From Hyphomicrobiales bacterium 4NK60-0047b (lineage in GTDB: Bacteria > Pseudomonadota > Alphaproteobacteria > Rhizobiales > HXMU1428-3): DNA of 64,000 nt. Position 1 is the first letter of the stretch. The number at the start of each line of letters is the position of its first letter. This document shows positions 422 to 26,854 of the stretch, piece after piece. Under the pieces are notes generated by a model. It saw nothing but the letters and a program-made list of their open reading frames with translations, had not been told where the DNA came from and did not search any database. The position numbers and the translations under genes are program-made. The DNA is taken from NCBI GenBank assembly GCA_040367435.1, contig BAABWY010000006.1:62001-126000 (forward strand). Direction: 5' to 3'.

Positions 422-2476
422 ATGGCATCAGAAGATATCGAACGCGGACTGGTCGCAAAATATTTGCACCGTGTCTTGCGAGCTGATCATATTCCAACCC
501 GGGCGGCGCGTTACATTCTATATTGGTTAAACGATCGCACAGAAATGTTATCGCTGCCTTTGCCGAAAAAGCTGAGTGGCGCCATTGGTAATATCTATTC
601 TTCAAGCTTCAGTCAGGCAGATTTTAACAGCGCATTTCTAGAACACCGTGATGAGATTCTAGATATGCTTGAAGAAGCATCGAAAAAAACCGGTTGGCCC
701 GAGCCAATGTGGACCAACATCAAAAATTTAACCAAGGCCCTTGAGCTGGATCCTAAATGCCAGGAAATCGTCGGGTTAATCGCGTGCTTCCATAGGTTTG
801 ATCAAGTTCAATATTTATGCAATTCGGTAACAGAATCCATCGGCCCATTAAGCCGCTCACTTGCTCTATTAACGGACCTGAGCGTGAATGATGTTGAGCG
901 CTTCACGGGGCCAGCCGGTGATATGGTCGCAGCTGGATTGCTGCAATTAAAAAATGAGGGCGGCGAACTTTCCGGCCCAGGCGGACATTTCGCCATTACC
1001 TCTCGGCTCGATGCCTGCCTTGATCAAAGATTTAAAAAGTTTGACCAAATGCGTGAAGCTTTGCTGGGCGCACCCTTAACAGCTAATATTGAGCCTACAG
1101 ATTATGACCACATCAAAGGAGATCGCGATTTAATTTGTAATGTTCTTAAAGGAGCTGTGTCTGAAAAAGCAAAGGGTGTAAATATCCTTTTATACGGCCC
1201 TCCAGGGTCAGGCAAAACAGAACTTACAAAAGTCGCAGCCAAAAAAGCAGGCCTTTCTATTTATGCAGCTGGTGAAGATGTTGGTGCTGAAGGTGAAGTG
1301 GACCGAAAAGGGCGCTTGTCAGATTTGGTTTTTGCCATCAGCTTGCTGAGAGGAGCAAAAAACGCTGCCATTCTTTTTGATGAAATGGAAGACGTAGCTC
1401 TACAACTCATCCGAAGGGGCGGGTCGAAAGTTTATCTAAACCGTTTGTTAGAGAACAATCCAGTTCCTATCCTTTGGACATCGAATAACATCAGTGACAT
1501 AGATGCCGCCATTCTACGTCGCATGATTTTAGCCTTTGAATTAAAATCGCCACCAACATCTCAGCGCCGCCGCATCATTGAAAGAATGTCAGAAAGAATA
1601 GGGGTTAAGCTCACCAAGGAAGAAATCTCGAATCTCGCTCAAAAGCTTGACGCCACTCCAGCTATTATGGAAAACGCACTAAAAGTTGCAAAATATTCCA
1701 AAGGCGGAGCTAAAGAAATTGAGCGTGCAGCCCAAGGAATTACAAGAGCTGTTTCTGGTCTTCAGGCGCGCCGTAAGCCAGAAGATTTTGTTTATGATCC
1801 AAAACTATCAAAAGCAAGCCGAGATATTCATGATCTCTCTGGCCAATTAAAATCATCAGGTAAGTTGAACTTTTCTCTTTGTCTCTCAGGCCCTCCCGGT
1901 ACTGGTAAGTCAGCTTACGCGCGCTTTTTAGCCAAAGAACTTGGCCTGGAAGTCATTCAAAAACGAGCGTCTGATATTTTCTCAGCCTTTGTTGGTGAAA
2001 CAGAAAAACAAATCGCAGACGCGTTTATGGAAGCCAGAGAGGCCAATGCGTTTTTGATTTTTGATGAAGCAGATAGTTTCCTCTATTCAAGGCAAGAAGC
2101 GTCGCGTTCTTGGGAGGTCACACAAGTCAACGAAATGCTCACCTGGATGGAAGAACATTCTTTGCCGGTTTGCTTCACGACAAATTTGATGGACCGTCTG
2201 GACACCGCTTCATTGCGTCGTTTTACTTTCCATGTGAGATTTAATTTCATGGATAAAGTCGCACTTGCCATGGCGTACAAAGTCTTTTTCAACCTTTCAA
2301 ACGTTCCCGAGCATGGATTGAAGTTTGAAAATCTAACACCAGGCGATTTCGCTCAGGTGAAAAAGCAAGCTGAAGTTCTAGGGGCAACAAAAGATACGGA
2401 GCGTTTGATCGCTCTTTTAAAAGAAGTCAGCCAAACTAAACCAGGCAACAGCGAAAACATCGGCTTTTTTAATTAA
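422..2476 (+). CDS. Tandem-domain AAA+ ATPase
   Basis: 684-residue protein with two AAA+ modules and an N-terminal region of about 230 residues in which I recognise no catalytic domain. Module 1 has Walker A GPPGSGKT at 259-266, Walker B ILFDE at 317-321, and a sensor-1 WTSNN plus an ILRR arginine segment after it. Module 2 has Walker A GPPGTGKS at 490-497, Walker B DEAD at 548-551, sensor FTTN and SLRR. No protease, helicase, zinc or membrane segment is visible, so it is probably a cytosolic remodelling ATPase whose client is bound by the N-terminal region. It stands alone, with no co-oriented neighbour within 700 bases, and is framed by inverted hairpin repeats. Nothing here identifies its biological role. 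Confidence 0.85.
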   Translation: MASEDIERGLVAKYLHRVLRADHIPTRAARYILYWLNDRTEMLSLPLPKKLSGAIGNIYSSSFSQADFNSAFLEHRDEILDMLEEASKKTGWPEPMWTNIKNLTKALELDPKCQEIVGLIACFHRFDQVQYLCNSVTESIGPLSRSLALLTDLSVNDVERFTGPAGDMVAAGLLQLKNEGGELSGPGGHFAITSRLDACLDQRFKKFDQMREALLGAPLTANIEPTDYDHIKGDRDLICNVLKGAVSEKAKGVNILLYGPPGSGKTELTKVAAKKAGLSIYAAGEDVGAEGEVDRKGRLSDLVFAISLLRGAKNAAILFDEMEDVALQLIRRGGSKVYLNRLLENNPVPILWTSNNISDIDAAILRRMILAFELKSPPTSQRRRIIERMSERIGVKLTKEEISNLAQKLDATPAIMENALKVAKYSKGGAKEIERAAQGITRAVSGLQARRKPEDFVYDPKLSKASRDIHDLSGQLKSSGKLNFSLCLSGPPGTGKSAYARFLAKELGLEVIQKRASDIFSAFVGETEKQIADAFMEAREANAFLIFDEADSFLYSRQEASRSWEVTQVNEMLTWMEEHSLPVCFTTNLMDRLDTASLRRFTFHVRFNFMDKVALAMAYKVFFNLSNVPEHGLKFENLTPGDFAQVKKQAEVLGATKDTERLIALLKEVSQTKPGNSENIGFFN

Positions 2477-2507
2477 GGCTCTTTTTTTCTCACACGGCTT
2501 TTTTGTT

Positions 2508-2612
2508 GTGCTTCAGATGCCCACTACGCATCCGCACTGGTCTACCTACGATAGGCGGCGCTAGGCACGTCATGTCCTGACGCCTAAGTGGCGTCACTCC
2601 TTCTTCGTAAGA
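2508..2612 (-). repeat. Long hairpin-rich repeat unit, copy L1 (inverted, shortened)
   Basis: On the minus strand it reads TACGAAGAAGGAG, a hairpin TGACGCC-ACTTA-GGCGTCA (2596 to 2578), GGACATG, a weak GTGC-CTA-GCGC hairpin, then the short hairpin repeat S3 (2537-2508). The same order of elements is seen in L2, L3 and L4. It lacks the CCAAGCGC hairpin present in the other copies. Confidence 0.75.
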
Positions 2613-2691
2613 TAAGGTGTTTGTGTTGTAAGAAGTTATTTTTCTCAGAGGTCCTCTTTATACACTTAAAGCTACTAGCATCATCTTGCCA

Positions 2692-2910
2692 TACGAAGAA
2701 GGAGCTCAGCCCACTTTGGGCTGAGGGACATGGTGAAGCGACAGCGAAGCCCGGTGCACAAGATCAGCCCGAGCAGAGCTTTGTGAGAACGGATAAGCTG
2801 ATCGCATAAAAAGCGCCGCACCTCGTAGGCCCAAGCGCCATTAGCGCTTGGAATAGCCGTGAGAGAAAATAGCGCGGTTGCTGGTGGGCAATCTAAAGCG
2901 CAACTAAAAA
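2692..2910 (+). repeat. Long hairpin-rich repeat unit, copy L2
   Basis: Starts with TACGAAGAAGGAG. Hairpin CTCAGCCC-ACTTT-GGGCTGAG is at 2705-2725, followed by GGACATG. Hairpin CCAAGCGC-CATTA-GCGCTTGG is at 2831-2851, then GAATAGCCGTGAGAG and the short hairpin element S4 at 2872-2910. A region of roughly 60 bases (2750-2810) in the middle has no counterpart in L3 or L4, so this copy carries an insertion or the others a deletion. Confidence 0.8.
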
Positions 2911-3005
2911 TCCGCGAGAGAAAATAAGAGAAATTGTGGAAATTTAGTCAAGATATCCTCAAAATTGTTTATCAATGTCGCAATTTAAAGGAGTTTCGTG
3001 AGAAT

Positions 3006-3029
3006 ACACTATTTCACATGAAATAGTGT
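3006..3029. promoter_or_regulatory. Perfect palindrome upstream of bufA
   Basis: Arms of 11 bases (ACACTATTTCA / TGAAATAGTGT) separated by CA. It lies about 175 bases upstream of the bufferin precursor start. It is not followed by a clear T-run on either strand, so an operator is as likely as a terminator. No regulator is encoded next to it. Confidence 0.5.
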
Positions 3030-3203
3030 CTTAAAGGCTGTTTTTAGAACTAAAACAACCTCTTCCTCACGGGGTTTCACAGTCTTGTTACAATATGTTT
3101 GATGAATTTCTCAAATTCTTTCTTTAATTTAGACATATTCCGAATGAAATGTGGGAACTGAAGTTTTTTTAACTTACAATTTAAATCAAAAAAGGAGACG
3201 TCA

Positions 3204-25998: not shown

Positions 25999-26325
25999 AT
26001 GAATGAAGCTGATGCTTTGGCGACGTTTGGAGCCCTTTCAAATGTCACGAGATTAAGAATTTTAAAGCATCTAGTAAGGGCTGGTGGAAATGGTTTAACA
26101 GCTGGAGAGATCGGCAATGAGGTGGAGGCAACCCCCTCGCGTGCTTCGTTTCATCTCGCAGAGATGACAAAAACCGGTTTACTGATTTCGGAGCGACAAT
26201 CGCGGGAAATTTTTTACCGAGTAGATTTCAAGTCTATCGGAGATATGGTCCACTACTTAATCCATGACTGCTGTGAAGGCAATAAAACAGTCCAATCATG
26301 TTGCAACCCAAATGATAATTGCTAG
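25999..26325 (+). CDS. ArsR/SmtB family transcriptional regulator
   Basis: 108-residue winged-helix repressor (ALSNVTRLRILKHL near residue 10; recognition region near 45-60 ATPSRASFHLAEM; wing ISERQSREIFYRV). The C-terminus has DCC, SCC and a final NC, five Cys that may sense a metalloid, in keeping with the arsenic-linked ArsR subgroup. It should regulate itself and the divergent DUF6428 gene. The TAG stop codon falls within sequence that matches the hairpin repeat (TAGCGCTT..AATAGCCGTGAGAG), so the repeat may have set the current C-terminus. Confidence 0.85.
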   Translation: MNEADALATFGALSNVTRLRILKHLVRAGGNGLTAGEIGNEVEATPSRASFHLAEMTKTGLLISERQSREIFYRVDFKSIGDMVHYLIHDCCEGNKTVQSCCNPNDNC

Positions 26326-26390
26326 CGCTTAAAATAGCCGTGAGAGAGAATAAAGCTCGGTTGCTGGTGGGCAACCTAAAGTAAAAAAAC
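26326..26390 (+). repeat. Partial long repeat (tail only) with short hairpin S7
   Basis: GCGCTTAAAATAGCCGTGAGAG matches the tail of the full units, then hairpin GGTTGC-TGGTGG-GCAACC (26359-26376) and a TAAAG-A-rich tail. This is the cleanest short-element hairpin in the window. Confidence 0.75.
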
Positions 26391-26404
26391 ATAGATAGAA
26401 GAAA

Positions 26405-26564
26405 AACGAAGAAGGAGTACTGCCCACTTCGGGCAGTAGGACATGACGCCAGAGGCGTCCGGCACCTAGTGCCGCCCCTCGGAGGCCCAAGCGCCATAAG
26501 CGCTTGGAATAGCCGTGAGAGAGAATAAAGCACGATTGCTCGCGGGCAAACTAAAGCAAAAAAT
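26405..26564 (+). repeat. Long hairpin-rich repeat unit, copy L3
   Basis: ACGAAGAAGGAG; hairpin TACTGCCC-ACTTC-GGGCAGTA (26418-26438); GGACATG; GACGCC-AGA-GGCGTC; GGCAC-CTA-GTGCC (26461-26473); CCTCGGAGG; CCAAGCGC-CATAA-GCGCTTGG (26487-26507); AATAGCCGTGAGAG; degraded short element S8. Nearly every segment is self-complementary. Confidence 0.85.
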
Positions 26565-26579
26565 ACAAATAACAAATGT

Positions 26580-26747
26580 ACGAACAAGGAGTACTGCCCA
26601 CTTCGGGCAGTAGGACATGGCGTAACGCCAGTGAAGCCCGGCGCCTAGCGCCGCCCCTCGGAGGCCCAAGCGCCATAAGCGCTTGGAATAGCCGTGAGAG
26701 AGAATAGAGCGCAGTTGCGAAGTGGGCAACCTAAAGCGCCACAAAAA
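26580..26747 (+). repeat. Long hairpin-rich repeat unit, copy L4
   Basis: Direct repeat of L3 about 175 bases downstream. Hairpin TACTGCCC-ACTTC-GGGCAGTA at 26592-26612; GGCGC-CTA-GCGCC at 26640-26652, compensatory to GGCAC..GTGCC in L3; the CCAAGCGC hairpin again; short element S9 with GTTGC-GAAGTGG-GCAAC (26714-26730) and outer GCGC arms. Confidence 0.85.
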
Positions 26748-26786
26748 AGAGAAACCAGGCCACACAAGAGGGACGGGCCTGGTTTC
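26742..26786 (-). terminator. Rho-independent terminator of the fasciclin gene
   Basis: Stem GAAACCAGGCC (26751-26761) / GGCCTGGTTTC (26776-26786), 11 pairs, followed on the minus strand by TCTTTTTTG. Confidence 0.8.
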
Positions 26787-26854
26787 AAATCCCCAAACAA
26801 TCTTACACAATCGCGAATGTAAGGTTGAAGGGAATATCAGATATATATAGGAAC

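Follow-up and report, generated by a model that had tools for sequence, protein, structure and literature searches.

The window, by which we mean the whole 64,000-nucleotide stretch of contig BAABWY010000006.1 of Hyphomicrobiales bacterium 4NK60-0047b that was analysed, carries two loci rich in hairpins. The first-pass annotation had placed four repeat units there, at 2508-2612 (minus strand), 2692-2910 (plus strand), 26405-26564 and 26580-26747, and a check of the sequence finds them where it put them. All four are members of an interspersed repeat of about 118 nt that we call element A. The unit is longer than was described at that time, and its order is CGAAGAAGGAG-P1-GGACATG-P2-P3-xCC(C)NCGyAGGC-P4-AATAGCCGTGAGAGA, with modules that are optional. 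A full copy starts with an A-rich leader and ATA, followed by CGAAGAAGGAG, and ends in an A-rich tail. Helix P2 is of two types, helix P3 is CGGCGC..GCGCCG and variants of this and is followed by a linker C-x-CC(C), and P4 is a compound helix, CNC-GyA-GGC-stem-AATA-GCC-GTGA-GNG.

Module B has the stems GGTTGC/GCAACC or GGATGC/GCATC within GYGC/GCRC, and lies 3' of copies or nested in them, in P3, in P4 and once reversed in the P1 loop. It is also a separate and abundant hairpin family of about 35-40 nt, often tandem and with stem variants of its own, with 72 occurrences in the 636 kb of the genome that were sampled. Some copies carry module C (GATCAGC..GCTGATC, enclosing a further hairpin) in the P3 loop, and it is seen also in L021, L022 and L025. 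The first locus of the window (2508-2612 / 2692-2910) is a head-to-head inverted pair with inverted arms at 2597-2619 / 2682-2704, the minus arm having module B instead of P4. The features of the two loci are as follows, R1 being a covariance model of the conserved core.

2488..2612, minus strand: element A copy, left arm of the head-to-head pair, P1 TGACGCC/GGCGTCA, B replacing P4 (from sequence; no match to R1 at E<=0.01)
2499..2539, minus strand: module B hairpin within the minus copy, GGATGC/GCATC enclosed by GTGC/GCAC (from sequence)
2694..2866, plus strand: element A copy with module C in P3; P1 2705-2725, GGACATG 2726-2732, R1 core 2803-2866 (from sequence, blastn and R1)
2757..2812, plus strand: module C (GATCAGC...GCTGATC hairpin) in the P3 loop, limits approximate (from sequence)
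2871..2909, plus strand: module B 3' of the copy (from sequence)
26324..26388, plus strand: partial element A, 3' end only (AATAGCCGTGAGAGA), with module B at about 26355-26385 (from sequence)
26407..26522, plus strand: full element A; P1 26418-26438, P3 26460-26474, P4 26478-26521, isolated pair x=26476 / y=26482 (R1, 79.1 bits)
26527..26557, plus strand: module B 3' of the copy, limits approximate (from sequence)
26581..26701, plus strand: full element A, tandem to the 26407..26522 copy; P1 26592-26612, core 26639-26701 (R1, 80.2 bits)
26706..26742, plus strand: module B 3' of the copy, limits approximate (from sequence)

With regard to the shared motifs, AAGGAG upstream and GGACATG downstream are present in all four units, and the GAAGGAG first reported for all of them is CAAGGAG in the fourth. 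The P1 stem is TGACGCC/GGCGTCA in the minus-strand unit (2578-2596), CTCAGCCC/GGGCTGAG at 2705-2725 and TACTGCCC/GGGCAGTA at both 26418-26438 and 26592-26612. The ACTTN loop, thought to be constant, is indeed in each of the four units but not throughout the family, as 23 full copies have ACTTC in 7, TTTTC in 6 and other loops in 10, partly through alignment ambiguity. The second hairpin, GGCAC/GTGCC in one unit and GGCGC/GCGCC in another, was read correctly and is P3 in our naming.

Copies, distribution and conserved fold

More copies had been expected in the genome, and they are there. With one window locus as query, blastn gives 89 matches in the window's genome (G000), many more than chance would give, and R1 finds at least 146 copies at E<=0.01, which is a lower bound because 150 of the 1311 first-look candidates were scored. 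In the genus relatives G003 and G004 there are 135 and 45 matches respectively (104 and 30 listed). The second window locus has blastn matches in 11 of 41 neighbourhood genomes, including all seven other members of the genus. In the wider class a core match to model R2 is present in 16 of 387 genomes, G000 included, and in 13 of 264 genera (E<=1e-4, strict filters, 14 candidates scored per genome), and the R1 scan gave 8 of 241 genomes (strict filters, 22 candidates per genome). The spread over Alphaproteobacteria is thus patchy, and among genomes with 150 candidates scored copy number ranges from 3 to at least 146. Among the carriers are Asticcacaulis endophyticus, Henriciella sp., Cohaesibacter sp. 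and Roseibium porphyridii.

Window-type element A has no match in plasmids, phages or IMG/VR. In the plasmid search the Roseibium copy as query matched 9 records, including Neorhizobium, Shinella, Phyllobacterium and Rhizobium, and two further divergent queries matched 1 plasmid record and none. Three of the four records examined, of these 9, hold the element in rRNA operon spacers, antisense to rRNA, the sites being 5S/tRNA-Met, 16S/tRNA-Ile and tRNA-Ile/tRNA-Ala, the last a weak model match (E 0.011). These divergent copies are at L273, L332 and L334, on Roseibium, Neorhizobium and Phyllobacterium replicons. No rRNA lies within 4 kb of the Shinella copy, and R1 finds no copy beside G000's own 16S gene. 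Other palindromes also occur near element copies. One of them (CTAGAGTGATTCCGTT..AACGGAA-like or CTCGATTCG..CGAATCGAG) adjoins the element in other genera (L112, L130, L212, L216), and a separate hairpin (ATTCCCGC..GCGGGAA; L018 around 1220-1252), which from the REP literature we take to be CGTC-REP-like, lies near an element copy in another family.

Double-sided stem changes, far in excess of the nulls, support conservation of a four-helix fold. The class-wide set has 84 cores, 81 of them distinct, taken from 52 loci that were selected to lie outside G000-G007, so far as matching of records allowed; 88.9% of its cells pair against 66.0% when shuffled, and it has 273 double-change cells against 82.1. 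For 79 cores (74 distinct) of the window's own genome the figures are 95.2% against 80.1%, and 185 against 44.1. In both sets most of the signal is lost if the helix partners are slid. As shuffles ignore relatedness we added a tree null, with columns simulated independently on a FastTree tree (300 runs, four sets). In none of the four sets did any of the 300 runs attain the observed share of paired cells or the observed count of double changes, of which the null yields about 33 for the own genome. The tally of pairs showing a double change was matched by 3 of 300 runs class-wide and by none for the other sets. Both core alignments are fitted to the model, and fixed words served in part to find the copies, for which reason the invariance of those words carries no weight as evidence. 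Pair counts from the A2 alignment, in which P3 is misaligned, are left out.

The proposal that stems change on both sides rather than on one is borne out by the 74 distinct genome copies, for which the model-fitted alignment has 185 cells changed on both sides, 38 on one side and 67 unpaired. It had also been proposed that the fold rather than the sequence is conserved. The fold is conserved, but the unpaired AAGAAGGAG, ACATG and AATAGCCGTGAGAGA are almost invariant as well, in part through their use in gathering copies.

Two further pairs deserve comment. In the middle pair of P4a, T-A prevails within the genus and G-C outside it; class-wide this pair forms in 97.5% against a null mean of 69.1% (0 of 300 runs), and its 13 double-change cells were reached in 13 of 300 runs. 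The other is the isolated pair between x, the second base 3' of P3, and y, an internal-loop base, both of which are outside the covariance model. Here x·y is Watson-Crick in 69 of 84 rows class-wide (shuffled mean 31.5), with all four pair types, and in 69 of 77 in the own genome (45.7), with three. Against the tree null the distinct rows give 67 of 81 class-wide (mean 38.2, 0 of 2000 runs) and 64 of 72 in the own genome (mean 42.5, 1 of 2000 runs).

Orthologous sites often keep an element while its interior differs. Between G002 and G000 (L160/L050) P1, P2, P3 and P4 all differ between conserved flanks. In a single 17-kb stretch, picked for its copy density in G000, all six full G000 copies are present in G003. 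In one of these copies both bases of a P1 pair differ (G-C to T-A), in one the P4 stem is wholly different in G003, and in one there are one-sided changes with pairing kept through G·T; at one site G003 has a different P1 type and an extra minus copy, giving a head-to-head pair. The stem swaps look like conversion between copies, and some of the double changes may be single conversion events and not compensatory evolution. In the relative tested, 16 of 19 G000 copies are present and 3 absent, and in reverse 14 of 16 are present, 1 partial and 1 absent, proportions that are biased towards presence, since carrying elements was largely what decided the choice of both sets. A site that is empty in G000 (L073 compared with L228) has no obvious target duplication.

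Strand, replication and gene context

Both strands of element A fold with about equal energy, so that energy does not decide which of them folds. The folding z-scores of the sense RNA are -3.5 to -5.4 in four copies, sense being the strand on which the first-pass annotation read the units. Read in sense, the stems hold more G·T than A·C in three counts (15:2, 37:16 and 40:14), which are small; the second and third come from model-fitted alignments that may slightly favour G·T, and the first and third share copies. A family folded as antisense should have the reverse, and the sense strand is thus probably the one that folds, as RNA or as single-stranded DNA.

In G000, 141 of the 146 copies lie on the majority strand of their contig, and among the matches listed so do 102 of 104 in G003 and 29 of 30 in G004. 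Exact AATAGCCGTGAG matches share a strand in 16 of 16 cases in G004 and 14 of 15 in G007, several of the contigs being single-copy. Four of the five minority copies have an oppositely directed copy within 400 nt, the two standing head to head, and the modules are polar too (B 69:3 and C 25:4 in the 636-kb sample). GC3 skew assigns sense to the G-poor strand for 20 of the 21 stretches in G000, L232 disagreeing, and for 20 of 20 in relatives. The leading strand is usually G-rich, and sense therefore presumably lies on the lagging strand, if G-poor is taken as lagging. The sole 16S gene found, on contig C1, is opposite to that contig's majority sense strand, and KOPS-like words (6:14 and 4:1), which are too few to decide, lean the same way. 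If rRNA is co-directional with replication, the copies in rRNA spacers are again on the lagging strand. Inverted arrays are common outside the genus, so the polarity is established for this genus only. Some of the head-to-head arrays in other genera are large and BIME-like, for example with three minus copies and then two plus (L085 1576-2127, L132, L167).

Genes flanking the copies were scored relative to sense for 60 of 63 copies, with ++ in 17, -- in 15, convergent in 21 and divergent in 7; 4 of the 60 are inside a called ORF. Copies avoid divergent promoter regions and their orientation is independent of gene direction, which speaks against an element of mRNA. The base profile of the flanks (165 upstream, 181 downstream) has no promoter-like motif 5' and no T-tract 3', and a sigma-70 consensus scan of the two window loci gave 0 promoters. 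At gathering scores the Rfam matches in the window are two tRNAs, with none to element A, and at E<=1 the region 2300-3100 has a single match, at 13.4 bits against a cut-off of 77.

A loose terminator scan found 4 sites in 26250-26850 where 1.2 (sd 1.2) are expected, and 3 in 2450-3050 where 0.6 (sd 0.9) are expected, other sites being included in these counts. Antisense P1 followed by CTCCTTCTTCG (tail CTCCTTCTTC) is terminator-like in all four units.

26418-26438, 26592-26612 and 2705-2725, minus strand: antisense P1 terminator-like sites (loose scan)
2578-2596, plus strand: antisense P1 terminator-like site (loose scan)

Group IIC introns insert next to terminators. As a general rule for element A we rejected such insertion, which is real but does not hold for most copies: a perfect stem of >=8 bp lies within 60 nt downstream in 7 of 71 cases and further on in 2 of 71, and for the genome_contigs loci in 16 of 165 and 2 of 160 respectively. 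In a minority of cases a long perfect hairpin begins 2-10 nt past the 3' end of the element (L238:8369-8410, L047:3601-3650, L188:1800-1850, L039:2327-2380). These hairpins are likely to be terminators of convergent genes.

Explanations for element A

The reading we favour, with belief and doubt in about equal measure, is that element A is a REP-like interspersed DNA repeat, recognised by its fold and placed during replication by some agent. What the results above show is the number of copies, their fold, their uniform strand and their retention at sites; how they were copied, and by what agent, we infer. The feature recognised would be the fold of one strand, the agent reading the chain of hairpins together with the invariant unpaired segments. 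Copies would be placed, and stems exchanged, while the element is single-stranded at the replication fork. A possible route is annealing of a DNA strand of sense polarity into the lagging strand, and an alternative is copying primed from the leading strand. The copies would by now be mostly inherited vertically, with foldability kept by selection, by conversion between copies or by both. Several points count against this reading: no mobilising enzyme was found, the empty site at L073/L228 has no target duplication, retention of sites is also expected of an element with a host function, and the antisense terminator-scan result in all four units would point to a role in transcription. The strand observed would also be the wrong one if the folding strand had to be exposed as lagging-strand template.

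The main rival is that the copies are polar sites with a function for the host, the folded strand, as leading-strand template, serving replication or segregation, for example as a loading site for restart of replication or for repriming of the leading strand, with selection keeping both fold and orientation. Near-absolute polarity in three species, orthologous retention with fold-preserving changes and stem conservation far above the null are all as such sites would have them. The patchy occurrence in 16 of 387 class genomes, the range of copy number from 3 to at least 146, the tandem arrays and nested modules, the element-free sites in relatives and the inverted arrays common in other genera are not, and no factor has been linked to the element; we consider a host function unlikely. 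A structured RNA, its sense transcripts acting in trans or in cis in the 3' regions of mRNAs, would account for the excess of G·T on one strand, the elaborate fold with its isolated pair and near-invariant unpaired segments, and the sense folding z-scores given above. This we think quite improbable, as orientation tracks replication and not genes, neither the flanks nor the two window loci have a promoter-like signal, the two strands fold about equally, Rfam gives no match at gathering scores, and 3 of 4 copies examined in plasmid records are antisense inside rRNA operons. The first-pass annotation had offered a structured RNA or a protein-bound DNA element, and its RNA half is weakened because orientation tracks replication rather than genes and there is no sigma-70-like promoter signal, while the better fit is with a DNA element that is recognised through its fold. 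Its statement that the element was spread by an unknown mechanism stands, and its interpretation overall is partly supported.

It is very improbable that the copies are REPs or MITEs of a conventional Y1/RAYT or IS200/IS605 system whose transposase is lost or elsewhere. Hairpin DNA in high copy number, head-to-head dimers and an intergenic, promoter-avoiding location would suit such a system, and G003 has two Y1_Tnp genes. However G000, which is 99.67% complete, has no match to the Y1/RAYT transposase (PF01797), nor have 6 of the 7 other genus members, and there is no element at the five Y1 loci scanned, of 8 fetched from relatives. The flank profile has no terminal GTAG or CGTC tag, and the sense strand is opposite to the lagging-strand template that IS200/IS605 enzymes use. 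The reverse transcriptase RVT_1 (PF00078) is likewise without a match in G000 and is present in 2 of 8 genus genomes, and the two RVT_1 loci scanned in relatives have no element. We also considered an autonomous partner in the large presence/absence stretch L156, and rejected it since the two large ORFs there look like genes for a sensor kinase and for a response regulator. A further suggestion is an antisense terminator or attenuator, co-directional with replication, in which P1 and the pyrimidine-rich complement of CGAAGAAGGAG end stray transcripts. We give this hardly any credence. The antisense P1 of all four units is among the sites of the loose scan (4 against 1.2 and 3 against 0.6) and divergent promoters are avoided, but that scan covered the window only, the tail CTCCTTCTTC is broken by C where a strong T-tract would not be, the G·T excess speaks for the opposite strand, and conservation of P2-P4 and of the invariant 3' segment is left unexplained.

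More broadly, element A might represent a class-wide system new to description, with a multi-helix single-strand fold on the leading-strand template and either a replication-coupled agent that is neither HUH nor a known RT, or polar restart sites. We put this forward tentatively and on balance would not expect it. Near-absolute polarity constrains how copies arose, and orthologous sites let single stem pairs be traced, so the spread of such repeats becomes testable whichever mechanism holds. The alignments of element A could seed an entry in a repeat or RNA database.

Comparison with known repeats

REP-like repeats without a known transposase are an open puzzle in Alphaproteobacteria (PMC3733652), and element A, with its defined fold and isolated pair, is a strong handle on it. 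The CGTC REPs treated there are palindromic, interspersed and mainly alphaproteobacterial, form head-to-head dimers and have no dedicated transposase; each is one short hairpin tagged with CGTC at an end, and the tails are mostly CCA (PMC3733652). Element A is like them in copy number, in head-to-head dimers and in that no dedicated transposase was found. It differs in being a four-helix chain of ~118 nt, in having no terminal CGTC in the flank profile and in being strongly replication-polar in the genus. GTAG REPs with RAYT/TnpAREP are described in PMC8266576 as fold-recognised DNA of high copy number with bulged stems. Element A shares the copy number and the bulged stems, and recognition by fold is what we propose for it. 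In contrast to GTAG REPs its ends are ATACGAAGAAGGAG and GTGAGAGAAAA with no terminal GTAG, CGTAGG being internal in some copies, and no Y1 was found in G000. E. coli REPs are on both strands (PMC12306157).

In the open-licence literature searched, the core words of element A led to no paper whose title or abstract showed a relation to it. Rhizobium-specific intergenic mosaic elements (RIME) were reportedly described by Osteras in 1995. RIME and the A/B/C palindromes of rhizobia are mentioned in PMC2573895 and PMC1273637, and by description they are like element A in being mosaic, palindromic, intergenic and of the same order. Model R2 gave nothing at E<=1 on three 50-kb stretches of S. meliloti pSymB, which may or may not contain RIMEs, and element A may be identical with the rhizobial RIMEs.

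Chen and Shapiro are said to have described, in 2003, long intergenic repeats of Caulobacter and other alphaproteobacteria, with a title linking them to DNA methylation sites. Going by that title, these repeats are like element A in being long, intergenic and of the same class. GANTC, the CcrM site, is in 0 of 23 full copies of element A and in 2 of 84 and 1 of 79 cores. Element A has the high copy number, intergenic location, palindromic structure and avoidance of promoters that broadly mark REP-like repeats, and it is best read as a variant of that kind.
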